Shown one piece after another: positions 53,173-64,000 of a stretch of DNA of 64,000 nt; within the stretch, counting starts at the first letter, position 1, and every line of letters starts with the position of its first letter. This stretch comes from Caldicellulosiruptor danielii (lineage in GTDB: Bacteria > Bacillota > Thermoanaerobacteria > Caldicellulosiruptorales > Caldicellulosiruptoraceae): contig NZ_CP139957.1 in NCBI RefSeq assembly GCF_034343125.1, positions 1,978,001 through 2,042,000 of the forward strand, read 5' to 3'. The notes beneath the pieces are model-generated. The model was not told the DNA's origin and ran no database searches. It was given only the letters and a program-made list of their open reading frames with translations. Made by a program: the position numbers and the translations under genes.

Positions 53173-53249
53173 GCGCCCATAGCTCAATTGGATAGAGCAT
53201 CAGACTACGGATCTGAGGGTTGGGGGTTCGAGTCCTCCTGGGCGCGCCA
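53173..53249 (+). tRNA. tRNA-Arg, anticodon ACG; likely integration site
   Basis: Acceptor GCGCCCA/TGGGCGC, anticodon stem TCAGA/TCTGA with loop CTACGGA (anticodon ACG), T arm GGGGG-TTCGAGT-CCTCC, CCA encoded. The phage-like region starts directly after its 3' end, which is the classic attachment position for tyrosine-integrase elements. Confidence 0.93.
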
Positions 53250-53620: not shown

Positions 53621-53655
53621 AAAAAAAGGAGCGCTGTTTCAAGCGCTCCTTTTCT
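53621..53655 (-). terminator. Terminator enclosing the primase-like gene's stop codon
   Basis: Stem AAAGGAGCGCT / AGCGCTCCTTT with the stop codon TGA (53639-53641) in its 6-base loop, followed on the minus strand by eight T. Confidence 0.8.
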
Positions 53656-54718
53656 GTGTCAGAAATAATAAGTAATCATCAATACCTTTGAACCTTGCAT
53701 CCCATTCCATCTGTTTGAACTTAAACCCATGTTCAGTAAGCATATTTTTGATTTTCTCAAGATTGTGTGCTACCTCCTTCTTTTCTTTGAAATCCATGTC
53801 GAATGCCAGTACTATCATCTTAGGCTTTATAGTTTGCAGAGTTTCCAGCAGTTGCTTATGGCATGAACTAACACCGGGCAAACCAATAAACATCTTCCCT
53901 GACAAATATGAGGCTACATCTGCTTTTAATGCTCCTTCTGTAACAAATACAATGCCATCTTCCATAGCACCAGTTATATGCAAATTCGCTTCCGCTGGTG
54001 TTCCATCATCCTTGCTACTGGACGAAGAAAACCAGCGGTACTTTGACAGTGCCGGTTCATCCATTCTAATCTGCAACCCTACTATTTGCTGTTGTAAATT
54101 TTTAACTGGAATAGCATAGCCTTGGTAGGGTATAAAGTCCCATTCACCAGTAGTTTTGTGTCTATAAAATCCGGGAATATTTTCAAGACTTAATCCTCTT
54201 TGCTGTAACATTTTGCAGATTAGAATGCGCCTTTCTTTCTCAACATTTAAAGATTTATAGCCTTTGATTTTTATGAATGTTTCTGATACTCCTCGTCTTA
54301 GAAGCTCTCTTTTGTGCTCTTCGTTAAGAGAAAGTAACTTCAGAAATTCTCTGTAGACTTTATCTCTTACTTCTGGTGGAGCAATATGCTTTTGTTGTGT
54401 TTCTTTGTTTTGAAGTTTATACTGCACATGGTACAACCTTTGTGAACCAGATGCTATCTCCTGTGCAAGTTCCCTATAGGCTTCTTTTGTGTCTTGATTG
54501 GTTAGTATCGCATATAACTGCAACGCATTGCCCTGTCTGCCACACTTGTGGCATATGAATGTGTTCTTTAAAATGTTGATATAAAGATGACCTTCACGCC
54601 TGTGTGGTTCGTCACACCAAGGACATAGACAGTTTAATTCATATCCACGTTGCTTCAAAACATTTATCCTTACTCTATCAAGCACGTCTTGCATTGTGAT
54701 GTCTATTAACTCTTTCAT
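53639..54718 (-). CDS. CHC2 zinc finger / Toprim primase-like protein
   Basis: 359 aa. The N-terminal zinc finger is LNCLCPWCDEPHRREG ... FICHKCGRQGNA. A Toprim domain at about residues 245-340 has the Glu in VFVTEGALKADVA and the DxD in MIVLAFDMDFKE (DUF3854-like). This is a DNA primase-type protein of a phage or mobile element, without the helicase domain. ATG behind AAAGGGG. Its leader is exceptionally long and structured, and its stop lies inside a terminator hairpin. Confidence 0.8.
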   Translation of the reverse strand: MKELIDITMQDVLDRVRINVLKQRGYELNCLCPWCDEPHRREGHLYINILKNTFICHKCGRQGNALQLYAILTNQDTKEAYRELAQEIASGSQRLYHVQYKLQNKETQQKHIAPPEVRDKVYREFLKLLSLNEEHKRELLRRGVSETFIKIKGYKSLNVEKERRILICKMLQQRGLSLENIPGFYRHKTTGEWDFIPYQGYAIPVKNLQQQIVGLQIRMDEPALSKYRWFSSSSSKDDGTPAEANLHITGAMEDGIVFVTEGALKADVASYLSGKMFIGLPGVSSCHKQLLETLQTIKPKMIVLAFDMDFKEKKEVAHNLEKIKNMLTEHGFKFKQMEWDARFKGIDDYLLFLTQKRSA

Positions 54719-54810
54719 TTCCCCTTTCCCCCTTTTTAAGAATTTACAAACTTCTTTCCGCCAACAATTGTTGGCAAACTACCAAAGGGGGAAAGGGGGG
54801 TCCCTTTGGT

Positions 54811-55015
54811 TACGCAAACTTTGACTCTTCTGTGAACTACCATCCACCTGAAGAGGTGGAGTTTTGTGAGAAGTTTGGCAGCAGTTTATGCTACCCTTAT
54901 TCTCACAGGGTGGTTCACACACCCACTACCGGTTATCTGCTTTATCGCAGACTCACCAGCTACCTTTAAAAGTATGTTACTCTTATTATAGAAGATGGAG
55001 TCTTCTTGCTATACT
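54811..55015 (-). mobile_element. IS605-type right end / omega-RNA-like structured remnant
   Basis: In the leader of the primase-like gene. On the minus strand a series of hairpins (TCTGCGATAAAGCAGA; GGGTGTGTGAACCACCC) ends with CTCCACCTCTTCAGGTGGA-TGG-TAGTTCAC. A G+C-rich hairpin followed by TAGTTCAC at 54832 is the usual right end of Firmicute IS200/IS605 elements, which encodes the omega-RNA scaffold, and the next bases would be the guide. The upstream AGCAAGAAGACTCCAT is shared with the 5' end of the tnpB remnant at 9480-9500. No tnpB is present here. It is therefore a deletion derivative, or a structured leader that resembles one. Confidence 0.45.
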
Positions 55016-55026
55016 TCTGATAAAAC

Positions 55027-55177
55027 ACAAAAGCCTTGATGAGTTGACACACCCATCAAGGCTAACTTTCTTTTTTGCAAACTACCAAGCTGTTTTTATT
55101 TTTTATATTTCTGTAGGACAATGTGAATTTACAATTTCCCCACACTTTTATTATACCACGTTTAGTGTTTATTGCAA
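55027..55177 (-). promoter_or_regulatory. Promoter-leader module A with GTTTGC pair and attenuator
   Basis: TTGCAA (55172-55177), 16-base spacer, TATAAT (55150-55155), followed after about 75 bases by GTTTGC (55077) and GTTAGC (55061) and then a stem AGCCTTGATGG / TCATCAAGGCT ending in TTTTGTGTTTT. The 5' arm of the terminator begins inside GTTAGC. It drives the primase-like gene. Confidence 0.65.
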
Positions 55178-55663
55178 CTACAATTTATTCCCATTCAGGT
55201 CAAGGAATGTTTTGGCTTTGCTTCTAACTTGTTGCAAAATCTCTTTTGTGTTTGGATCTTCCAGAATGAAAATTATGTTCTCTGCTGGCGCAGTGTTGAT
55301 AACATCCCTCAGGATTGTTGCTTCTCCCGGTAGTACATAGCACACCATGGCGTCTTTGCCTTTGGTGGTACGAACCTGTGCAACATATGGATATTTTGCA
55401 GGATAATAGCTTGTTACCTTATCTTGCAAATGTTCCACCAGGAAATCTAAAAATTTTAAAGTTCTTTGCGCTTCTATGGGTGACAATTGTGCATATATCG
55501 GTTTTAAAATCTCTCCTTCCTGTTCTACTAACATACCTTTAATTAGTCTCTTTATTTTACTCTCCGGGTATGGATGTACCAGTTCTTTTATGTGCTTCGG
55601 AGTGCAACAACCCCAAAGATAGATAAACTCCTCTATCATTTTTTCAGCCTGGTATATAGCCAT
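55178..55663 (-). CDS. Mobile-element protein of unknown function (161 aa)
   Basis: From the ATG at 55663 (AAGGGGTGC upstream); a longer frame adds only a lysine/arginine run. The N-terminal half looks like a winged helix (FIYLWGCCTPKHIKELVHPYPESKIKRLIKGMLVE), the C-terminal half is alpha/beta (VRTTKGKDAMVCYVLPGEATI; IIFILEDPNTKEILQQV). It may be a replication-relaxation-like or DUF5697-like regulator of an integrative element. Overlaps the next gene upstream by 20 bases. Confidence 0.55.
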   Translation of the reverse strand: MAIYQAEKMIEEFIYLWGCCTPKHIKELVHPYPESKIKRLIKGMLVEQEGEILKPIYAQLSPIEAQRTLKFLDFLVEHLQDKVTSYYPAKYPYVAQVRTTKGKDAMVCYVLPGEATILRDVINTAPAENIIFILEDPNTKEILQQVRSKAKTFLDLNGNKL

Positions 55664-55898
55664 TTCTGCACCCCTTTCTTTTTTTCTTCTTCTTTTCTTC
55701 TTCTCTCTTCTTTTCTTTCTCGTACTCATCTAAAGCTTGCAAAATAGCTTCTTCTAAAGCTCTTTCTTCTGGTGTTTTATGAGCTTCTATCCATTCCAGC
55801 ATTGAGTTTACATGAGCATTGAATTTTGCAAGTTCATAATCGTTGTAGCGTTTTCTTAATCTTCTTTTCGCCTGTTCAAAACTGATTACCTTTCCCAT
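55644..55898 (-). CDS. Small charged protein with lysine-rich tail (84 aa)
   Basis: An N-terminal amphipathic part (VISFEQAKRRLRKRYNDYEL, MLEWIEAHKTPEERAL) is followed by an extreme lysine/glutamate tail (EKEKKREEEKKKKKRKG). Not recognised. ATG behind AAGGAG. It lacks the GTTTGC elements found before most genes of this region. Confidence 0.55.
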   Translation of the reverse strand: MGKVISFEQAKRRLRKRYNDYELAKFNAHVNSMLEWIEAHKTPEERALEEAILQALDEYEKEKKREEEKKKKKRKGCRNGYIPG

Positions 55899-55934
55899 AT
55901 TTTCTCATCTCCTTCTCATCGAATGAATCCTATC

Positions 55935-56138
55935 TTACCACCAGCCACTGTTTTCGTCCCTGTTATGCTCTCTATTATACCATGGTGGTTCCCACAAGGA
56001 ACGCTCATAGTCAAAAAAGTCAGTGTGATTGTGACAACCATACCACCTTGAACAAACCATGCCACTAAGATGGCAAATTCCCTCTTCTGGGTCGTCTATA
56101 AAACTTTCGAAATAACCGCAATCATCACAGTAGTGCAT
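55935..56138 (-). CDS. Small cysteine/tryptophan-rich protein (67 aa)
   Basis: Starts MHYCDDCGYFESF, with further cysteines in GICHLSGMVCSRWYGCHNH; probably a small zinc-binding protein. ATG behind AAAAGGGG and its own promoter. Not recognised. An extended -10 (TGGTATAAT) for the next gene lies within its last codons (WYNREH). Confidence 0.55.
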   Translation of the reverse strand: MHYCDDCGYFESFIDDPEEGICHLSGMVCSRWYGCHNHTDFFDYERSLWEPPWYNREHNRDENSGWW

Positions 56139-56173
56139 TGTTATTTTCCCCTTTTCTTGAATTCTCTATTATC

Positions 56174-56203
56174 TTTATACCACATTGCGCAAATTTCCTA
56201 CAA
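56174..56203 (-). promoter_or_regulatory. Promoter upstream of the 67-aa gene
   Basis: TTGTAG (56198-56203), 18-base spacer, TG-extended TATAAA (56174-56179). It lies within the T tract of the preceding terminator. Confidence 0.5.
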
Positions 56204-56232
56204 AAAAATAGGCAGGGTTTCAAAACCCTGCC
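56202..56232 (-). terminator. Terminator after ardC
   Basis: GGCAGGG / CCCTGCC stem (56211-56232), then TATTTTTTT on the minus strand, two bases after the ardC stop. Confidence 0.8.
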
Positions 56233-56233
56233 G

Positions 56234-56878
56234 TCATGCTGTTGCTACCTCCTTAGGTTTTTCTACTTCGTTTTCGCCAAATTTTGTTTTTTGTAGCACA
56301 TATTCAACGGCTGTTTCAGCACGTCCTGCTGCTTTAATTATAAGTGTCTTATCATTATTCAACTGCTGTAACCAAAAATTAATGTATGCAACATTGTTTT
56401 GGAATACCTCAGGAATATCTAAACCATACATATTCATAAGCATTGAGCTACCAATTTCTGCTGTAAGCTCTTCCAACGAATAATGCCAATCGCCTATTTT
56501 GTTATGCTTAATTCTATCAAGTCTGCTTTGATGACCTGTTGAGTGAACAATTTCATGAAACAGGGTCGAAAAGTATTCTTCTATTTTGTTTTTATCTTCA
56601 AAGTGTGAAAAATATGGCATATAAATAGTGTCGTTGATTGGAGAGTAACAAGGATTATAGTTTCCATGCTTGATTGGAACTATGTTATTCCATTGTTTTA
56701 CGAATTCGAGTGCGTGTTTAACTTTATTCTTGTAGTCTACTTCTTTAACTACTGGCATATCTTGTGGTATATCTTGTTCTTTCCCTTTCTTCTGCGGTAG
56801 TCCTTCAATATCATTGACATTAAAAACGTAGTAATACTTTAATAAGTAAACCTTCTTGACTTCTTCTTTAGTCGCCAC
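56234..56878 (-). CDS. ArdC-like antirestriction protein, metallopeptidase part (frameshifted)
   Basis: About 214 codons of the C-terminal zinc-peptidase domain: YYVFNVNDIEGLP, YFSTLFHEIVHSTGH (HExxH), SLEELTAEIGSSML (third ligand) and NNVAYINFWLQQL. ArdC proteins bind ssDNA and protect incoming DNA of plasmids and phages from host systems. It continues from the gene upstream in another frame; the break is in the acidic linker at a 7-A run. The first in-frame Met here is not a convincing start. Confidence 0.8.
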   Translation of the reverse strand: MATKEEVKKVYLLKYYYVFNVNDIEGLPQKKGKEQDIPQDMPVVKEVDYKNKVKHALEFVKQWNNIVPIKHGNYNPCYSPINDTIYMPYFSHFEDKNKIEEYFSTLFHEIVHSTGHQSRLDRIKHNKIGDWHYSLEELTAEIGSSMLMNMYGLDIPEVFQNNVAYINFWLQQLNNDKTLIIKAAGRAETAVEYVLQKTKFGENEVEKPKEVATA

Positions 56879-56886
56879 CTCTTCTA

Positions 56887-57210
56887 TTACTGTTTCCTCT
56901 TCTTCTGGCTCTGTAATGTCATTTTTTTCTCTGCTTTGATTGTATCAACCTTCCAGAATACTACAAGATACCCTTTAGCACCTTTCTTTAGTCTGGCATT
57001 TAATTTTTTGATTTGATTGAACGTTAGATACTCCCCAGGAGCAAGTAAAAACAAATTGATACCATTGTAAGGCCTGTTTGTTTCCCAATTGCGTGGTATA
57101 GCGTCCTTCCAGCTTTGACGCCAAGGTATAATACCTTGTTTCAACTGTTTTAGAATCTTTTCAGTTACAATTTCAGAAACTTTCTCTGCATAGAAAAACT
57201 TATCACCCAT
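56887..57210 (-). CDS. ArdC-like antirestriction protein, ssDNA-binding part (frameshifted)
   Basis: N-terminal DUF1738-type domain: VTEKILKQLKQGIIPWRQSWK, PYNGINLFLLAPGEYLTFNQI, GAKGYLVVFWKV. After TIKAEKK the frame runs into a run of seven A near 56922-56928 and ends nine codons on; with eight A it would continue as NDITEPEEEE into the peptidase part. ATG at 57210 with AAAGGGGG and GTTTG next to the start. Confidence 0.8.
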   Translation of the reverse strand: MGDKFFYAEKVSEIVTEKILKQLKQGIIPWRQSWKDAIPRNWETNRPYNGINLFLLAPGEYLTFNQIKKLNARLKKGAKGYLVVFWKVDTIKAEKKMTLQSQKKRKQ

Positions 57211-57295
57211 TACAAACGCCCCCTTTGCAAACTATTCTATGCAAACTTCCAAGCGAAAGGGCAGGGGCAAACCCTTTCGCACATTTCTATCATTT

Positions 57296-57517
57296 CTATG
57301 CGGCTATCCAGTTCAGCAATTCTTCTGGAATGCAGAAGATTATTCTTGTTATGAGGTTTCCTTTTTCAGCATCTACGATATAATTTTTCAACATTTTATG
57401 CGGTATTTTGCTGAGTTTCTTTCTTAAAATTTCAGTATCTACAGTAGTTGTATGACTAAGCACGTACAAATTGCAAGCCCCTGTTGCATTTATCATAACA
57501 ACGGCAAACTTAATCAT
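57296..57517 (-). CDS. Small protein of unknown function (73 aa)
   Basis: ATG at 57517 with AAGGAGG and GTTTGC between the ribosome site and the start. FAVVMINATGACNLYVLSHTTT then KKLSKIPHKMLKNYIVDAE. A compact alpha/beta protein, not recognised. A hairpin GCGAAAGGG/CCCTTTCGC lies between it and ardC. Confidence 0.55.
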   Translation of the reverse strand: MIKFAVVMINATGACNLYVLSHTTTVDTEILRKKLSKIPHKMLKNYIVDAEKGNLITRIIFCIPEELLNWIAA

Positions 57518-57571
57518 CGCAAACCCTCCTTGGCAAACTTCCAAAGGAAGGCTGGCATGAGGTTTTACACC

Positions 57572-57919
57572 TCATGCCGTCTTCTTGTCTACTACTGCTG
57601 GGGGTGACATTAATAAGAGAGCCTCATCGGCGCTTGCAAAAGTTCGAGCAAGGTTAGATGATTGAACAGCTATAATGTCTATCAACTGGTACAGATATTG
57701 TAGCTTGGTAAATATTTCCTGTTGTTCTTCTTTGTTAAGTGCTTTGTAAAGTTCAATATCAAACTGCACCTTAGTTACAGGTTCTTGTGGAAAATAACCA
57801 TATTCTCTGAAAAATGACAGTTTACCAATTAAAATAGAAAATTCCTTTTGCAAGCTCATCAACTCTGTAAGGCTCATTCCTTTAAGCGATGTAAGTTTTT
57901 TACCTTCATATTTTAACAT
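57572..57919 (-). CDS. Helical protein of unknown function (115 aa)
   Basis: ATG at 57919 with GGGGAG and GTTTGCC adjoining the start. Mostly helical (LTELMSLQKEFSILIGKL; EIFTKLQYLYQLIDIIAVQSSNLARTF), not recognised. Its stop codon lies in the stem of a perfect hairpin GGCATGAGG/CCTCATGCC (57554-57578). Confidence 0.55.
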   Translation of the reverse strand: MLKYEGKKLTSLKGMSLTELMSLQKEFSILIGKLSFFREYGYFPQEPVTKVQFDIELYKALNKEEQQEIFTKLQYLYQLIDIIAVQSSNLARTFASADEALLLMSPPAVVDKKTA

Positions 57920-57980
57920 GGCAAACACTCCCCTTTCTGCAAACTTTATTTTTGCAAACTTCCAAGGGGAGTGAGGCAAG

Positions 57981-58949
57981 CTACTGATTGCTTGCCTCTT
58001 TTGCTTTCGTTTTAGTTAACCTGTAGGTTATTTTCTTTGTACCCAGTTTTTCCAGGTCCTGTTCTGTTAGTTTTAGCTTTTTGAGATTAGTCAGTGTGCA
58101 ATTCAGATACTGCAACGGGTCTTTTCCCAAGCTTTGAATAAAGTCAAACACCTTTTTAGTGTCAAAATCCCAATTATTTACTATTGTTAACTTCCATACA
58201 GATGTATCAGTTGTGATTTCGCCGTATTCTTCAACAAAGTTCCGCAACAATTCTTTTTTGAGTTCAAGAACCGATTCAAGTTCTTCGATTTCCTTTGCTA
58301 ACCTTTTAGCTTCGTCTACGGTATTAATACCATTGCAGATAGTTTTAAACGGACATGTAAGACATGTAGCGGTGCTTTCTGCCTTTTTAAAAGTATTAAT
58401 GTCTTCAGATAATTCAAAGTCTAGTTCGGCATCTTTTATGTTTTCCAATACCTGCTTAGTCCAATCGAGAGTTTGCTGTATATTTTTCTCTGAAAGCTCT
58501 ACTGGTACATCTTCTCCATACCTCAGGTAGTGAAAAGCAGCACTGTTAATTTCAAATCCTTCCTGATTCAAACCGTATGCGTACAATAACAGTTGTTTCT
58601 CATCAGCATTTCTGTTCCAGTTCGTTTTCCAATCTATAATCTGCCCATTTACAACTATATCAACAAACCCATCCATTGGAATACCGTCTACAAGAAATTT
58701 GATGGGTCGTTCTACAAACTCCTGCGGTGTACCTTTAAACTGCCTTACTCTTTCTGTTATAAACTCTGCAACTGTCTCATCTAACTCCCCAGTAGTTATA
58801 AACTTTGCAATACTTTCGTGTACTTTTCGTCCAAACTCTAAAGCGGGTGTTGTGTATTCGATTCCTTCAATATATTTGTAGTAATAAGCTCTCTCACACT
58901 TTTCAAAAAGTACCAACTTTGAATAACTTCCAGTCCATGTCTCTACCAT
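57981..58949 (-). CDS. RecB/Cas4-like PD-(D/E)XK nuclease
   Basis: 322 aa from the ATG at 58949 (AAGGGGGAG upstream). Starts TGSYSKLVLFEKCERAYYYKYIEG; the nuclease motif is DGFVDIVVNGQIIDWKTNW (Asp, Asp and Lys). A later cysteine set CLTCPFKTIC with the Cys of FEKCERA could bind a 4Fe-4S cluster, as in Cas4 and AddB. Probably the exonuclease partner of the RecT annealase three kilobases upstream. Stop codon at the edge of a hairpin loop (57973-57998). Confidence 0.82.
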   Translation of the reverse strand: MVETWTGSYSKLVLFEKCERAYYYKYIEGIEYTTPALEFGRKVHESIAKFITTGELDETVAEFITERVRQFKGTPQEFVERPIKFLVDGIPMDGFVDIVVNGQIIDWKTNWNRNADEKQLLLYAYGLNQEGFEINSAAFHYLRYGEDVPVELSEKNIQQTLDWTKQVLENIKDAELDFELSEDINTFKKAESTATCLTCPFKTICNGINTVDEAKRLAKEIEELESVLELKKELLRNFVEEYGEITTDTSVWKLTIVNNWDFDTKKVFDFIQSLGKDPLQYLNCTLTNLKKLKLTEQDLEKLGTKKITYRLTKTKAKEASNQ

Positions 58950-59016
58950 CTTAGAACTCCCCCTTGCTAACTTTATTTTGCAAACTTCCAAAGAGGGGGG
59001 AGAGTCCTAAAAACAA

Positions 59017-59163
59017 AAGCCCTAACAACGGCATATAATTACCGCTGTCAGGGCTAACTTTCTTTTGCAAACTCTGTTAATTCATTTTTTATATCTTTGT
59101 AGGACAATTTTTATTTATAATTTCCCTACACTTTTATTATACCACTTTTAATATTTGTTGCAA
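59017..59163 (-). promoter_or_regulatory. Promoter-leader module B with GTTTGC pair and attenuator
   Basis: TTGCAA (59158-59163), 16-base spacer, TATAAT (59136-59141), whose TAA is also the stop codon of the upstream gene. The leader then has GTTTGC (59067), GTTAGC (59053) and the stem AGCCCTGACAGCGG / CCGTTGTTAGGGCT ending TTTTGTTTTT. It drives the nuclease gene. Its sequence around -10 and just downstream is nearly the same as in module A. Confidence 0.7.
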
Positions 59164-59445
59164 CGGTCTGAAAATTTTTATAACATCTCCTTCCCATATA
59201 ACCTTGCAACCCGCAGTTCGAAACTCCTCTGCAAGAGATGCCATAATATTTTCTACTGTGACAGCATAAATAGGATTGTCTAAATCTATTCCCATTCTAT
59301 ACGCAAGCTGTTCTGCAAACTCTTTTGCATATACTGTAGCCGACTCATGGTGTTTGACTTCCCATGCCGGTGTCCAAGCATCCCTGTCTTTCAAAACATC
59401 TTGAACAAAAATTTTTATGCTCTTTTCTGTTTCCTTTTTGCTCAT
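59137..59445 (-). CDS. Small protein of unknown function (102 aa)
   Basis: ATG at 59445 with GGAGATGTTTGCA in front. SKKETEKSIKIFVQDVLKDRD, AKEFAEQLAYRMGIDLDNPIYAVTVENIMASLAEEF, CKVIWEGDVIKIFRP. Not recognised. Its last seven codons are at the same time the promoter of module B, so the DNA is read twice. Confidence 0.55.
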   Translation of the reverse strand: MSKKETEKSIKIFVQDVLKDRDAWTPAWEVKHHESATVYAKEFAEQLAYRMGIDLDNPIYAVTVENIMASLAEEFRTAGCKVIWEGDVIKIFRPLQQILKVV

Positions 59446-59523
59446 TGCAAACATCTCCTTTCCTTGCAAACTGTTATTTGCTAACCACCAAAAAAACAAA
59501 CTCCAAAAAAGAAAAAGGGCAAA

Positions 59524-59703
59524 CTACTGGTGGTCTGCTTGTTGCTCTGTTACATCGATGATAAGTTCAAACTTTCCAAGTTTCCAGTGTATATTCTTTT
59601 TAGCAACAGAGCAGTATCCCACCAGTAGCACAAGACTAAGAATACTTAGCCAAAAAGTCCAGTCAAGAACTGTAAAAACAATTTCGAAAATTTGCATTAG
59701 CAT
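59524..59703 (-). CDS. Small membrane protein (59 aa)
   Basis: Short ORF with GGAGG ten bases before ATG. One strong membrane helix near the N-terminus (TFWLSILSLVLLVGY) is followed by a short basic-then-acidic tail (KKNIHWKLGKFELIID). The next hydrophobic gene (49 aa) lies upstream, with a predicted antisense RNA between them. Holin-like or type I toxin-like in size; function unknown. Confidence 0.5.
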   Translation of the reverse strand: MLMQIFEIVFTVLDWTFWLSILSLVLLVGYCSVAKKNIHWKLGKFELIIDVTEQQADHQ

Positions 59704-59727
59704 AGTGTTTTTACCTCCTTGTTGTGG

Positions 59728-59823
59728 TATAATAAAGATAGGTGGGTACGTTGGGGAGTTTATATTAATAATGTGGGTGGAAGGTAGAAGTAGTTAGGTA
59801 ATTATCTAACTACTTCTTTTTTT
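59728..59823 (+). ncRNA. Candidate small RNA between two small membrane-protein genes
   Basis: Plus strand: TG-extended TATAAT (59728-59733, context TGTGGTATAATAAAG as in modules A-C), then about 85 bases to an intrinsic terminator GAAGTAGTTAG/CTAACTACTTC (59787-59816) with seven T. It is antisense to the end of the 49-aa gene. There is no ORF of note. Direction and existence are inferred from promoter and terminator alone. Confidence 0.4.
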
Positions 59824-59951
59824 ATCTCTATTTTAAATGGACTAAACGAAATTTTTATTTCAAAATCTGCTTTCACAAAAGCTACAATTAAAACTATGAC
59901 TACTGGGATAGCAATTTCCAAAACTTTCAAGATTATACCTTCCAATCTCAT
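59802..59951 (-). CDS. Small membrane protein (49 aa)
   Basis: AAAGGGGG precedes an ATG at 59951 and an in-frame TTG six bases later. One long membrane helix (IILKVLEIAIPVVIVLIVAF), then FEIKISFSPFKIEIKKEV. A frame extends upstream to 59990 but has no ribosome site. The stop TAA lies in the loop of the hairpin at 59787-59816. Similar in size to phage or type I toxin peptides; not recognised. Confidence 0.45.
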   Translation of the reverse strand: MRLEGIILKVLEIAIPVVIVLIVAFVKADFEIKISFSPFKIEIKKEVVR

Positions 59952-60079
59952 CACCCCCTTTTTTCTAAAGATATTCTCTAACGTACCCATGTTTTTTGGG
60001 GGTGATGATTACCCACATTGATGGCAAACTTTTATAGGCAAACTTCCAAAGGGAACAGGACAGTATAGCTGTCCACAGA

Positions 60080-60421
60080 TTAGAGAACCTGGAATCTGCG
60101 GATAGCTACAATCTGTCCATTCCCATCACGCACAGCTGACTGTGGACCAGTATCAGGTGCAATGAGGTCATCTCTGGTAATTCCCATCTCACGTGCAGCC
60201 TGCAAAACAACAGTAGATACAATGTAAATAGTATCAGGTTCTGGATTTGGCAAATTTAATCCTGTATAAATAGTCTTTACTACTGGTATACCATTTATTT
60301 CTCCAATTGCTGTCTGTTGTGATTCTACCCTGATACTGATTCCACTTGGTGGGATTGTTATAATCCCCTGCTCTGTCTGAATATTGATAGCGTGCGGTGT
60401 GCAATTAACAAGCTTTATCAT
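60080..60421 (-). CDS. Phage-type conserved protein of unknown function (113 aa)
   Basis: VNCTPHAINIQTEQGIITIPPSG at the start, then YIVSTVVLQAAREMGITRDDLIAPDTGPQSA and a final IVAIRRFQVL. I recognise the pattern 'IPPSG ... TIYIVS..V..A ... RDDL..PDTGP.A.R' from phage and plasmid proteins of unknown function. ATG behind GGGGGAGG, with GTTAGCC touching the start. A hairpin GGACAG/CTGTCC follows the stop. Confidence 0.65.
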   Translation of the reverse strand: MIKLVNCTPHAINIQTEQGIITIPPSGISIRVESQQTAIGEINGIPVVKTIYTGLNLPNPEPDTIYIVSTVVLQAAREMGITRDDLIAPDTGPQSAVRDGNGQIVAIRRFQVL

Positions 60422-60477
60422 GGCTAACTTTCCTCCCCCTGCAAACTTTGTTTAGGCAAACCCCCAAGAGAGCAGGC

Positions 60478-60894
60478 TTAGCACCTGCTCTTGGTTGCAA
60501 CAATATTCAGTAAATTTTCTACAAAATGCTCAGCATTTGAATATCGTTCATGTAGGTCCAGTTGATTAGCTGGTATTTCTGCAATGTGAATAACTTCTCT
60601 TTCAAAGTATAGAGAGTCGTCTTCAATAAAACAGGGTATTTCGGCAATGCGGTAGGTATCGTAATTTTCCGCAATCACATAAAGTTTATTTTCGACTAGT
60701 ACTAACATGCCTACTGTACTGTCTGTATAGTCGCCACAGTTGAAACAATAAACGCTATCTTGAAAAGAAGTATCGTGTAAAAGTTCATTCTCTTTCAAAT
60801 CAATCCCAAAGTAAAAATGTTCTTGGTTTTTTATAATGTGTGGAGATCCACAATAGTAGCAAACCTCAACCTCATCCAGAATCCTATATTTCAT
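60478..60894 (-). CDS. Zinc-ribbon-like protein of unknown function (138 aa)
   Basis: ATG at 60894. Two CxxC pairs, EVCYYCGSPHII and SVYCFNCGDYTD, suggest a zinc ribbon; the rest is acidic and aromatic (VIAENYDTYRIAEIP). Not recognised. The stop TAA lies in the loop of AGAGCAGG/CCTGCTCT (60469-60491). Confidence 0.6.
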   Translation of the reverse strand: MKYRILDEVEVCYYCGSPHIIKNQEHFYFGIDLKENELLHDTSFQDSVYCFNCGDYTDSTVGMLVLVENKLYVIAENYDTYRIAEIPCFIEDDSLYFEREVIHIAEIPANQLDLHERYSNAEHFVENLLNIVATKSRC

Positions 60895-60963
60895 ACTAAC
60901 TACCCCCTTGCAAACTTTTTTTATGCAAACATCCAAGGGCAGGGCGAAGGACAAATCCCTGCC

Positions 60964-61914
60964 CTATTCTTCTACAGATTCTATAAATAACATTCCAGAA
61001 GCAAGTTTTTTTGTAGTGACTTTAGCAAAGACAAGTCCTTTTGCCAGTTGTTCTATTATATCCTTTTTTGCTGTGTACAATTCGAACTCCCCTTCATCAG
61101 CCATTACTTTTATTTTTGCATAGTCGGTCCCCTTTTTCGACTGCATAATAATTGGGTCTTCAAATACAATAACGTTGTGTAGTTCAGTTACTTCTTTTGC
61201 AGAAGCGGATTGCTGTGTCTCTTCAGATGTTTTCTGTTCTTGCACAACCTCAGTTCCATCCACCGTCCACGACGATTGAGGTAAAACAACAGGTTCTTTG
61301 CTTAGTTCCTGAGGTTCTACTGACATTTCCTCTGCGCCATATAGTCCCTCAAAATCCGTTGCAAATGCTTCTCTAAGTGCCTGTTCTAATGCAACTTTCC
61401 TTATCATAGTCGCCGGCATTTCTCGCCAACTTCTCATCGGTTGACCGTCCTTCTTCCTTCTCAGATATTCGCTAAGGGAAACAGCAATTTCGATTGGCAC
61501 CTGCCAATCTTTTCTATAAACCCTTGCCCATCCACCTACCAGCTCTTCACCATTTAATACAAGACTTCCTTTCCTATACTCTAATTCACCGTTTTCCTTA
61601 CGGATGATTATACCAGCTTCCCAACCACTACAAAGTGGGTTTTTTGATGCTCTTTTAACAAATACGTCTTTTGATACTACAACAGTGGCAGGTTCATCTT
61701 GGTGATATTTTATTAAGTAAGCTTCCCTCAGGAACGGATTTAAACGTTGATGCTGACAAAGTTTGAGAAACATAAACACTTCGGCATCAGTAACTTTCGT
61801 AGGGTCACCCGAAACCAGATACTTTTTGATAATTTCAGGTGACAGTACAACTTTTCCTGTTTCTGTCTCATACTCAATTGTATCTTGTTTTACAATTGCC
61901 TTTACATTATTCAT
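60964..61914 (-). CDS. RecT/Bet-type single-strand annealing protein
   Basis: 316 aa from the ATG at 61914 (GGGAGGG upstream, GTTTGGG at the start). The Bet/RecT core is AEVFMFLKLCQHQRLNPFLREAYLIKY, VVVSKDVFVKRASKNP and the DEGLYG-like FATDFEGLYGAEEM; the last 90 residues form an OB-like or linker domain (LHNVIVFEDPIIMQSKKGTDYAKIK). It anneals ssDNA during phage recombination, probably with the RecB-like nuclease. Confidence 0.88.
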   Translation of the reverse strand: MNNVKAIVKQDTIEYETETGKVVLSPEIIKKYLVSGDPTKVTDAEVFMFLKLCQHQRLNPFLREAYLIKYHQDEPATVVVSKDVFVKRASKNPLCSGWEAGIIIRKENGELEYRKGSLVLNGEELVGGWARVYRKDWQVPIEIAVSLSEYLRRKKDGQPMRSWREMPATMIRKVALEQALREAFATDFEGLYGAEEMSVEPQELSKEPVVLPQSSWTVDGTEVVQEQKTSEETQQSASAKEVTELHNVIVFEDPIIMQSKKGTDYAKIKVMADEGEFELYTAKKDIIEQLAKGLVFAKVTTKKLASGMLFIESVEE

Positions 61915-61976
61915 CCCAAACTTCCCTCCCTGCAAACTTTATTTTTGCAAACTCCCAGTGGTAGGACTTTTGAGCC

Positions 61977-62510
61977 CTACCACTCATCTGGGGGAAGAAT
62001 AATGTCTGTATCCCCTATACACTGTATAGTACCATCTTCTGTTACTCTGTAGTATATTGGGTCATAATCATATGGTTCAACAGCAATTACCGCACCTGGC
62101 TTTGCTGCAACTAACGAATATCTGTCTCCATGCTTACCTGTTCTTGAATAACCCGAGGCACGTACTACATCAACGTATTCTCCAGAAGAACCTTCGGATT
62201 CAATAAAACCGTCAATACCAAACAATATATACTCTGCAACTTCAGAAGATTTGTAAAATCTAGTAATAATTCTGCCTTTCCTATCCTTTCCCTCCTGGAT
62301 ACTATAAACTCCAGGCAAGATAGTCTTTTCTTCGATATTTATTGCATGTACTGGGAAAGTAAGTGCTGCGCAACACCAAGAACGTATACCAGAATGTCCT
62401 CTAAGTTCAACCAATACTCTTCCGTTATCAGATGGTCCTACTATCTTTGTTGACACCCAACCACCGCTTGGCAACTTGATAGGCTCAGTAACTTTAACAC
62501 GGATTTCCAT
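61977..62510 (-). CDS. Protein of unknown function (177 aa)
   Basis: ATG at 62510 with GGGAGG and GTTTGTT. Beta-rich, with VKVTEPIKLPSGGWVSTKIVGPSDNG, a CC pair (IRSWCCAALTF) and VVRASGYSRTGKHGDRYSLV. Not recognised. Its stop TAG lies in the stem of AGTGGTAGG/CCTACCACT (61957-61985). It is the first gene after leader module C. Confidence 0.55.
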   Translation of the reverse strand: MEIRVKVTEPIKLPSGGWVSTKIVGPSDNGRVLVELRGHSGIRSWCCAALTFPVHAINIEEKTILPGVYSIQEGKDRKGRIITRFYKSSEVAEYILFGIDGFIESEGSSGEYVDVVRASGYSRTGKHGDRYSLVAAKPGAVIAVEPYDYDPIYYRVTEDGTIQCIGDTDIILPPDEW

Positions 62511-62561
62511 AACAAACCTACCTCCCGCAAACTGTTTTTTGCGAACTCCCAACAAGCACAA

Positions 62562-62781
62562 AAAGCCCCAAAGGACATTTTGCAGTCCTAAGGGGCTAAC
62601 TTTCTATCGGCAAACTACTGGCAAACTGGATATTCAGTTTCCTAGCTGCATATAACATAAAAGCCACAGGTGTTTGATGGTCTTCAAAAACCATACAAAC
62701 AACCTGTGGCTAACTTTCTGGAGCAAACTACAGAATGAATGCTTTCTGATTTTATTATACCACTTTTTTTGTTTAATGCAA
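62562..62781 (-). promoter_or_regulatory. Promoter-leader module C with two attenuators in series
   Basis: TTGCAT (62776-62781), 16-base spacer, TATAAT (62754-62759). Two units follow in tandem: GTTTGC 62723 / GTTAGC 62709 with stem AGCCACAGGTTGTTTG / CAAACACCTGTGGCT, and then GTTTGC 62610 / GTTAGC 62595 with stem AGCCCCTTAGGAC / GTCCTTTGGGGCT and a T run. Both terminators start inside a GTTAGC. An extra GTTTGC lies at 62621. Confidence 0.65.
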
Positions 62782-62814
62782 CACCTTTTTGCAAACTTCC
62801 AATGTGGGAGCAAA

Positions 62815-63066
62815 TTATCTCCCACAGAAGAGATGCCAGAACTCTACTGGGTGCATGGGTCTAATACCAAAATCGTATGAAGCCTCAACTTTTAATTTCT
62901 CCACTTTGCCGGTTTTTAGATTCTTAACTTTGAAGTGATATTCGCACACTACCTCATTTGTATCCGCATACTTGATTATCTTATAGCCGTTGAGGTACTT
63001 GTACTTTGGGAATATAGCTCGTCTCATGATACATCTAACTCCTTCTTTAAAGTTTCGTTTTAGCAT
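62815..63066 (-). CDS. Small protein of unknown function (83 aa)
   Basis: ATG at 63066. Strongly basic start (MLKRNFKEGVRCIMRRAIF), then YEYHFKV-type strands (VCEYHFKVKNLKTGKVEKLKV) and MHPVEFWHLF. Not recognised. Stop TAA in the loop of GTGGGAG/CTCCCAC (62804-62825). Confidence 0.5.
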   Translation of the reverse strand: MLKRNFKEGVRCIMRRAIFPKYKYLNGYKIIKYADTNEVVCEYHFKVKNLKTGKVEKLKVEASYDFGIRPMHPVEFWHLFCGR

Positions 63067-63122
63067 AACCAACACCACTCCCTGCAAACTTTTATTTGGC
63101 AAACTTCCACATCCAGGGCAGT

Positions 63123-63320
63123 TTATACTGCCCTTTTTAGTTCTTCTGGTTCATAATAAACCCAGCAAATTCTATATCCTGAATCTTGCAAAAAATTCTC
63201 TAACTCTTTGCAATAACAACGTTCTAAAACTAAGGCTTTATTTTCACGGACAATGCCAACTGGTCTTTGACAATAATAGATAATACCATTTTCTACTTTG
63301 CAAATATTGAAAACTACCAT
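63123..63320 (-). CDS. Small cysteine-containing protein (65 aa)
   Basis: ATG at 63320 behind AAGGGGGAG. VVFNICKVENGIIYYCQRPV, VLERCYCKELENFL, SGYRICWVYYEPEEL: a small mixed alpha/beta protein, not recognised. Stop TAA lies in the loop of a perfect hairpin AGGGCAGT/ACTGCCCT (63115-63134). Confidence 0.5.
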   Translation of the reverse strand: MVVFNICKVENGIIYYCQRPVGIVRENKALVLERCYCKELENFLQDSGYRICWVYYEPEELKRAV

Positions 63321-63477
63321 AAGAATCACTCCCCCTTGGTTTATATTTTTCTGCAAACTTTTGATGCTAACTTCCAAGGGAGAGAAAGGTTAGCAGAGCA
63401 CAGGGAAAACAACTTTTTCCCTGTTTTTTTTCAGCCTGAAGCTTAATTGCCTTTCGTAAATAGTATTTAAAAAGCAA

Positions 63478-63688
63478 AAAGCCCTGATTGAGCTTGTAAA
63501 CTCAAATCAGGGCTTACTGTAATCGGCAAACTGGCATATTTGATTTTACAAATAAGGCAGGCAACTAACCTGCCTGGCTCCCGCTAAATGGGGTAAAACT
63601 GAAGGTAGCATTAAGCCACCGTGCTCCCGCTGAGGGGTAAAATAATCTTGACTGATTGTATTTTACCACACTAATGGTCTAAAGTCAA
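63478..63688 (-). promoter_or_regulatory. Promoter-leader module D with tandem repeat and attenuator
   Basis: TTGACT (63683-63688), 17-base spacer, TAAAAT (63660-63665). The leader contains two copies of TTTTACCCC-n-AGCGGGAGC, each followed by a small hairpin (GGTGGC/GCTACC-like and GGCAGG/CCTGCC), then GTTTGC (63526), a GTAAGC variant (63512) and a terminator AGCCCTGATT...AATCAGGGCT with TTTTT. No gene is seen in 63321-63684. Confidence 0.6.
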
Positions 63689-64000
63689 CATTTGCCCAGA
63701 AAAAGCTCTTTTAGCTTCTCATCAATGGCATTCAGAACTTCATCATTAACTTTTCCTACTGTACGCAATATCCTTAATTTGCTTACTGAACGAATATTCC
63801 CTATATCCACATATGTTTTATTACTTGGTAGCGGTGGTATGTGACCAACAAACACGCATGTAGGATGATTAACAGTACGTCCCTGTTTTGTGGTTAATGG
63901 CACTACGGTAAGTGTCCCAAAGGTAGGCAAATTATTCACATCAATTACAACAGCCCACCGAATTTTATTTTTCTCCGTTCCGACATTATAACCAAAATTT
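63685..64000 (-). CDS. MazF/PemK-like protein, C-terminal part (runs off window)
   Basis: About 104 codons are visible, open to the window edge: NFGYNVGTEKNKIRWAVVID, then FGTLTVVPLTTKQGRTVNHP and RSVSKLRILRTVGKV. The strand order 'G...G.EK.K.R.AVVI ... TVVPLTT ... IRSVSKLRI' is that of MazF/PemK ribonuclease toxins. The N-terminus and any antitoxin lie outside. Its stop codon overlaps the -35 of module D. Confidence 0.65.
   Translation of the reverse strand, partial: NFGYNVGTEKNKIRWAVVIDVNNLPTFGTLTVVPLTTKQGRTVNHPTCVFVGHIPPLPSNKTYVDIGNIRSVSKLRILRTVGKVNDEVLNAIDEKLKELFLGKC

Follow-up and report, generated by a model that had tools for sequence, protein, structure and literature searches.

Paired hexamers at gene starts and in leader terminators of a Caldicellulosiruptor integrative conjugative element: a candidate RNA word with a possible decoy RNA

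The window analysed here, a stretch of 64,000 nucleotides of Caldicellulosiruptor danielii (assembly GCF_034343125.1, contig NZ_CP139957.1, a single-contig genome of 2,822,094 bases, positions 1,978,001-2,042,000), contains part of an integrative conjugative element (ICE) of about 91 kb inserted in a tRNA gene, in which pairs of the hexamer GTTTGC or its variants (hereafter words) sit at the majority of gene starts in two modules and within leader terminators. The span of the element is given by a copy of its 28-nt attachment (att) sequence at genome position 2,122,337. The encoded proteins include a type IV secretion system (T4SS) coupling protein (T4SS-DNA_transf), a TraG/VirB4-type P-loop ATPase, an SLT/M23 lytic enzyme, SSB, an actin-like protein, a sigma factor and an IrrE-type peptidase, with ArdC, RecT, PD-(D/E)XK and primase proteins encoded in the part lying within the window; a Pfam match to the tyrosine integrase domain was found in a sister ICE (genome G003). 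An earlier note, made from the letters alone, had called this region phage-like. The att repeat at a tRNA gene, the coupling protein and the ATPase identify it as an ICE instead, and we rejected a phage origin, since neither the region nor the array had a phage or viral-contig match. Phage and viral collections yielded 30 single viral matches to the leader pattern described below, all without a second pair and without a terminator, and the search for plasmid relatives yielded just one 66-base, chance-like match.

On the minus (coding) strand of the window, the pattern GTTTGC-N6..10-GTTWGC occurs 14 times against 0.15 expected from dinucleotide shuffles (0 of 100 shuffles reached 14), and when one degenerate position per hexamer is allowed, 17 non-overlapping pairs are found at 54,760-63,371. 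The array that the earlier note had placed at 57.2-63.4 kb is thus present but begins before 57,212, at 54,760, and runs beyond the end of the window, up to genome position 2,119,082; the genes said to be free of pairs indeed have none (55.2-56.2 kb). The whole genome (2.82 Mb) holds 31 pairs, of which 29 are on one strand and 27 of these within the ICE, and the reversed control pattern has no match genome-wide. One of the 2 opposite-strand matches is a three-word RNA described below. A similar density of pairs in ordinary intergenic DNA, which the earlier note had named as its refutation, is thus not what the genome shows.

Strand-biased clusters of pairs are present in 4 of 61 related genomes, namely G005, G007 and G010 of the same genus and G012 of another genus of the family, all others being at background. 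The ICEs of these four genomes and that of the window are homologous, and the five ICE regions hold 141 same-strand pairs versus 10 on the opposite strand, with 3 of the 141 inside open reading frames. After removal of overlaps, 127 sites were classified into leader sites (38) and gene-start sites (91, with logo and spacer counts based on 89); the remaining 29 have no recognised start or terminator, as is the case ahead of a small membrane protein gene. In the logo of the 127 sites AGTTWGC is conserved, with position 4 free to vary (T/A/C/G). The spacing that had been noticed previously is borne out, the 8-nt spacer (starts 14 nt apart) being dominant in gene-start (60/89) and leader sites (28/38), within a range of 7-11. 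The features of the window, in its own coordinates, are the following (SD, Shine-Dalgarno sequence; hexamer 2, the second of a pair).

53219-53246, plus strand: att end of the ICE, the 3' end of a tRNA gene (53173-53246), with a 28-nt copy at genome position 2,122,337
53642-54718, minus strand: primase-like gene (CHC2 zinc finger, DUF3854), the final gene under the word system
54721-54735, minus strand: SD arm AAAGGGGGAAAGGGG, exact 15-nt complement of the arm at 54784-54798
54760-54779, minus strand: word pair GTTTGC-N8-GTTGGC in the loop of the primase SD hairpin
54784-54798, minus strand: anti-SD arm CCCCTTTCCCCCTTT
55029-55063, minus strand: intrinsic terminator, its stem closed by AGC of hexamer 2
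55061-55082, minus strand: leader pair GTTTGC-N10-GTTAGC upstream of the primase gene
57227-57246, minus strand: gene-start pair ahead of the ArdC N-terminal domain gene (56887-57210)
57519-57538, minus strand: pair with an SD (AAGGAGG) within its 8-nt spacer, ahead of a 73-aa gene; kept in 4 of 5 ICEs
57939-57959, minus strand: gene-start pair in the loop of a CTCCCC/GGGGAG hairpin, a third word adjoining the ATG
58966-58985, minus strand: gene-start pair ahead of the PD-(D/E)XK nuclease gene (57981-58949)
59015-59055, minus strand: intrinsic terminator with AGC of hexamer 2 as closing bases
59053-59072, minus strand: leader pair GTTTGC-N8-GTTAGC
59466-59485, minus strand: gene-start pair ahead of a 102-aa gene, a third word adjoining the ATG
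60024-60043, minus strand: pair 5' of a conserved segment (CACCCCC...GGGTACGTTAG) that precedes a small membrane protein of 49-62 aa
60441-60461, minus strand: gene-start pair ahead of a 113-aa gene, a third word (GTTAGC) adjoining the ATG
60910-60930, minus strand: gene-start pair ahead of a 138-aa gene
61932-61952, minus strand: gene-start pair ahead of recT (60964-61914)
62527-62546, minus strand: gene-start pair (GTTCGC/GTTTGC) ahead of a 177-aa gene
62561-62597, minus strand: intrinsic terminator with AGC of hexamer 2 as closing bases
62595-62615, minus strand: second leader pair of a tandem leader
62659-62711, minus strand: intrinsic terminator with AGC of hexamer 2 as closing bases
62709-62728, minus strand: first leader pair of the tandem leader, directly 3' of a TATAAT promoter
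63084-63104, minus strand: gene-start pair
63353-63371, minus strand: gene-start pair in the loop of a CTCCCTTGG/CCAAGGGGGAG hairpin
63512-63531, minus strand: fifth leader site as read from the sequence, a degenerate pair GTTTGC-N8-GTAAGC overlapping a terminator stem (AGCCCTGATTTGAG...CAATCAGGGCTTTTT)

Leader sites, which were picked by requiring a C after hexamer 2 and a GGCTTTT-like tail, have the consensus A-GTTTGC-CAAAAANA-GTTAGC-CC. Hexamer 2 provides closing base pairs of an intrinsic terminator in all 38 of them (through its positions 4-6 in 34 sites and 5-6 in 4), an overlap that is partly built in because of this selection, its exact register not being so. When hexamer 2 is held single-stranded, the mean loss over the 38 sites is 7.2 kcal/mol. 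The sequence of hexamer 2 is GTTAGC in 34/38 leader versus 18/89 gene-start sites (p = 1.5e-13), and in 9/10 versus 3/22 when the ICE of the window is taken alone (p = 7e-5), where each of the 10 leader sites overlaps its own terminator; in the leader GTTAGC, it is the A whose partner is the first U of the terminator tail. GTT precedes 35 of 87 terminators of this type in ICE regions versus 0 of 9 in 212 kb of host DNA. The leader pattern GTTTGC-N7..10-GTTAGCC is found in 4 of 12 genomes of the genus, which are exactly the ICE carriers, with 24 of 24 matches in the sense orientation. A -10-like hexamer lies at most 75 nt upstream of 25 of the 38 sites, and a few leader sites seem to be located within operons. 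Another promoter-like type, TGTCCTACAnAnATATAAAAAATAAAA, is repeatedly found ahead of leader pairs (55,080-55,130 and 59,070-59,110), and the ICE has a sigma-70-family factor of its own (L061:296-904). In G010, the leader pair of the conjugation operon is immediately preceded by a tRNA gene (L069:4830-4900), and a similar-looking sequence is found there in G005.

Gene-start sites conform to YTTGG-N-A-GTTTGC-[CA]AA(A/T)(A/T)A(A/C)A-GTTTGC-SD, so the order given in the earlier note holds, in the form hairpin-TTGG-N-A-GTTTGC-N8-GTTTGC-SD, for this class and not for the leader sites, which have no TTGG. The GG at positions -4/-3 is present in 92-97% of gene-start sites, with or without a pairing CC after hexamer 1, and is missing from leader sites. 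A C-rich arm 5' of the TTGG is often complementary to the SD that follows hexamer 2, which places the pair in the loop of an SD hairpin. This complementarity belongs to the individual partners: the observed mean is -15.1 kcal/mol versus -13.1 kcal/mol when arms and SDs are swapped within genomes (z = -7.3; p <= 0.005 in each of five genomes; z = -5.5 over a narrower range of positions). The complementarity is most evident at the primase gene: over 15 bases it is exact in the ICE of the window, and the sister ICE has a long complement whose sequence is different. Of the gene-start sites, 62% have an upstream hairpin stronger than -8 kcal/mol and, on inspection, the 3' arm of the upstream hairpin is often the anti-SD arm itself, which suggests competing structures. 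The third word that had been reported beside several start codons is enriched in this class, with a word within 16 nt of the start codon in 38/91 paired versus 13/336 unpaired genes (p = 1e-18).

A conserved site in the opposite orientation is also present once in every one of the five ICEs (5/5). It consists of a promoter-like sequence, three words at intervals of about 15-17 nt, a G/C hairpin and an intrinsic terminator without a GTT ahead of it. The RNA predicted there, about 140 nt long, folds better than its shuffles (z of -3.6 to -4.8), its hairpin is kept in G000 and G012 despite changed sequence, and it carries the words in word sense rather than as their complement. No Rfam family scored above its gathering threshold at the words or at the three-word RNA. 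As a separate predicted transcript with several words and its own terminator, and with a counterpart of the same layout but its own word in the sister ICE, this RNA resembles a decoy RNA, a role that we infer.

The sister ICE, at 783-852 kb of G003 (same genus), has the same neighbourhood and is a mosaic in which some segments are 80-95% identical and others 28-58%, with 53-56% identity in the coupling protein and 58% in RecT. The GTTTGC array is absent from it. A different word, GAGTnnnAC, stands ahead of the SD of the orthologous RecT, nuclease and primase genes, and the 3' half of this word lies within a terminator stem in a leader (GAGTAAAGCCACAGAG...CTCTGTGGCTTTG). There are 9 sense-strand pairs of GAGTnnnAC in an 8-kb module versus 0.02 expected, and none in 63 kb of flanking host DNA. 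Close to the element's end, the opposite strand carries three GAGT words between a promoter and a terminator hairpin, the counterpart of the three-word RNA. AGTT is common to both words. That leaders, gene starts and the small RNA have all changed their word together is explained best by a trans-acting reader encoded in the element, and the occurrence of a different word within the same host genus likewise argues that the reader belongs to the element. In G016 and G281, an unbiased search of k-mers aimed at a third word returned SD-like words only. The sister ICE also contains a DUF3800-VIII RNA (Rfam RF03075; L160:2670-2735).

In public genomes, the strict pattern was found at three loci, two of which are single chance matches. 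The third (L133), a 4.2-kb contig with about ten word pairs, is part of an ICE of this family; it is placed in a metagenome-assembled genome labelled Candidatus Bathyarchaeota, probably through a binning error. One perfect pair of the gene-start type lies between promoter and gene of a chromosomal Xre-type helix-turn-helix (HTH) gene (G000:C1:2,477,313) and at the same place in G001, G002, G003, G005, G007 and G009, species with and without the array; it is absent from the 70%-identical homologues in G004 and G008. The Xre-HTH gene is perhaps accompanied by a SecB-like second gene.

The leading candidates for the reader are, by position, genes 44 and 45, which lie between Xre/IrrE-type control genes and the conjugation operon in 6 of 6 word-bearing ICEs. 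The product of gene 44, the first gene past the control region, combines an HTH with a long basic helix, and that of gene 45 has a RelE-like fold (mean predicted local distance difference test score 87; best Foldseek matches RelE toxins, probability 1.00, E 0.003). The case for gene 44, present in 6 of 398 genomes of the phylum, is weakened by two carriers whose ICEs have no evident word array, and that for gene 45 by its wider family with relatives elsewhere. An S1-domain protein (gene 71) was set aside since it also occurs in ICEs without words, and CsrA was rejected since the word lacks GGA; csrA is present as one chromosomal copy in G000, G003 and G012, outside the ICEs.

On these computed results (the motif, its confinement to ICEs, the terminator overlap, the arm/SD complementarity, the three-word RNA and the second word), we consider it likely that one ICE-encoded trans-acting factor reads the hexamer pair as a word in RNA, acts by antitermination and probably by opening of SD hairpins, and is buffered by a decoy RNA. 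In leaders, the pair would be transcribed just ahead of the terminator, with the (A)GC of hexamer 2 forming the closing pairs of the stem; the factor and the terminator would use the same bases and hence compete, so that binding would lead to antitermination and switch transcription ON. At gene starts, where the pair lies in the loop of an SD-masking hairpin, a bound factor would shift the balance away from the closed form, making the SD accessible and switching translation ON. The three-word RNA, whose terminator overlaps no word, would act as a decoy that sets a threshold. The DNA-processing modules and the conjugation operon would then be silent until the factor appears and be turned on together. 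From sequence we infer that the reader is a protein rather than an RNA, that it acts in the ON direction and which genes may encode it; the direction is less sure at gene starts than at leaders. A more specific form of this reading, an element-wide RNA address code, is put forward tentatively as a possibility: one ICE protein of a family new to such RNA binding (gene 45 with its RelE fold, say, or gene 44 with its HTH and basic helix) would read the short paired word in terminators as well as at SD hairpins and act with a dedicated decoy RNA, with incompatible words in sister ICEs, so that the genes of each element answer to their own reader.

Several observations weigh against an ICE-encoded activating reader. 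The terminator overlap owes part of its completeness to how the leader class was selected, and the sites are not independent because the five ICEs are homologous. The GG at -4/-3, specific to gene-start sites, is not accounted for, and about one quarter to one third of gene-start sites are without a convincing anti-SD arm. The conserved SD between the hexamers ahead of the 73-aa gene (57519-57538) looks like an arrangement for repression. Genes 44 and 45 have relatives in genomes where no such words are seen, the S1-domain protein is conserved yet shared with word-free ICEs, and the chromosomal HTH gene has its pair, a lineage-specific one, in array-free species.

The alternative closest to the preferred reading is that the factor binds the same RNA word but represses, blocking the ribosome at the SD and making leader sites conditional stops, as in TRAP or RegA. 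The third word between SD and ATG in 38/91 genes, the SD within the spacer ahead of the 73-aa gene in four ICEs and the position of hexamer 2 next to the SD speak for such a factor, but with the word overlapping the 5' arm of the terminator in 38/38 leaders, binding should prevent termination, and we regard repression as unlikely. The earlier note had left the choice between a DNA- and an RNA-binding regulator open; a sequence-specific, mobile-element-confined site is borne out, and the stem overlap, the arms pairing with SDs and the three-copy RNA favour RNA. Operators on duplex DNA, at which a protein would block or modulate elongation in one orientation in the manner of stoperators, agree with the asymmetric, strand-bound sites and with the DNA-type HTH of gene 44 in the control region, but do not predict the terminator-stem overlap, the preference for A in leader hexamer 2, the arm/SD complementarity or the three-word RNA, and a 14-bp repeat is no helical multiple; we consider this improbable. 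Equally low is the probability we give to a host-encoded RNA-binding protein exploited by ICEs: the pair ahead of the chromosomal Xre-HTH gene in several array-free species fits it, but a sister ICE in the same genus has another word, and the G004 and G008 homologues lack the chromosomal pair.

That a base-pairing small RNA with GCWAAC-type seeds reads the words, which are short and single-stranded in keeping with this idea, is very unlikely given the free variation of position 4, the absence of an antisense pair array elsewhere in the genome (2 opposite-strand matches) and the sense orientation of the conserved small RNA. The least probable of these readings takes the words for recombination joints, repeated borders that aid cassette swaps between ICEs, as the earlier note had also suggested. 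Gene content does differ among the ICEs, and the sister ICE is a mosaic, but the copies are tied to one strand and to terminator and SD geometry rather than to cassette ends, and words also lie in leaders and in a small RNA that bound no gene cassette, so that this suggestion is not supported as the main function.

The proposed RNA word has partial parallels among known systems. CsrA/RsmA and its CsrB-type decoys likewise combine one protein, a short word at many translation starts and a multi-copy titrating RNA, but the word here is a pair of AGUUWGC (or GAGUnnnAC) rather than ANGGA, also lies in terminators and is restricted to ICEs; the ANGGA core is not present in the 127-site logo, GGA arising just where position -2 is A (29% of gene-start sites) and not in leaders. 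TRAP and HutP are RNA-binding proteins that act on repeated short words and control transcription and translation from one type of site. Here, two words 14 nt apart replace the 11-repeat or UAG array, and there are dozens of sites per element. Neither a long (G/U)AG array of the TRAP type (two, at most three, words are present) nor a separate antiterminator hairpin was seen at the word sites. With the LicT/BglG ribonucleic antiterminator (RAT), the leaders share a site overlapping the 5' part of an intrinsic terminator, which makes binding and termination mutually exclusive (predicted here from the 38/38 sequence overlap), but the pair in leaders is mostly unstructured and is also used at SDs; no RAT-like two-loop hairpin was seen in the leaders read, the PRD-domain protein family not having been searched.

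In conAn (pLS20), canT (Tn916), lambda N and HK022 put, terminators keep a mobile element silent until there is an antitermination signal (PMC8955417, PMC11658703). For conAn and canT, a single action close to the promoter modifies RNA polymerase processively. Here, the conditional terminators each overlap a site of their own, rather than sharing one promoter-proximal element for many distant terminators, and words also mark the gene starts. The likeness to start-associated sequences (SAS) and stoperators drawn in the earlier note extends to position and not beyond: SAS of cluster K mycobacteriophages, 13-bp GGGATAGGAGCCC containing the SD (PMC3203893), and cluster A stoperators are asymmetric repeats ahead of many mobile-element genes in one orientation. 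Unlike SAS, the hexamers are paired and outside the SD, overlap terminators and come with a small RNA, and in sequence as in position they do not match the 13-bp GGGATAGGAGCCC at the ribosome-binding site; the duplex-DNA site of stoperators, matching in orientation, does not explain the RNA geometry.

Three further loci were noted in the element and next to it. At 63,685-63,939 (whole gene at genome positions 2,041,685-2,042,215) a PemK/MazF-like protein with an N-terminal extension is encoded behind a word pair; this protein is present in 5 of 5 ICEs. The small membrane protein of 49-62 aa and a convergent promoter on the opposite strand (59,700-60,020; L160:7293-8500 in G003) are kept in both ICE types; the transcript of this promoter would have GGGTACGTTGGGGAG in common with the mRNA leader, and the locus looks like a type I toxin-antitoxin cassette in its arrangement. 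A second element with its own integrase (genome positions 2,122,364-2,136,321) lies in tandem behind the ICE, with the same 28-nt att repeat as boundary.

Current work asks how large conjugative elements keep dozens of genes silent and later activate them jointly; the recent answers, conAn and canT, concern promoter-proximal antitermination. Here, a site lies at nearly every gene of two modules and presumably acts at two levels; a probable decoy RNA accompanies it, and one genus has at least two words that differ from each other. We found no description of such a system in the literature. If the preferred reading is true, these ICEs would encode a new family of RNA-binding regulators and provide a natural set of orthogonal RNA switches from thermophiles, and the difference in words may be a basis for immunity or incompatibility between ICEs.

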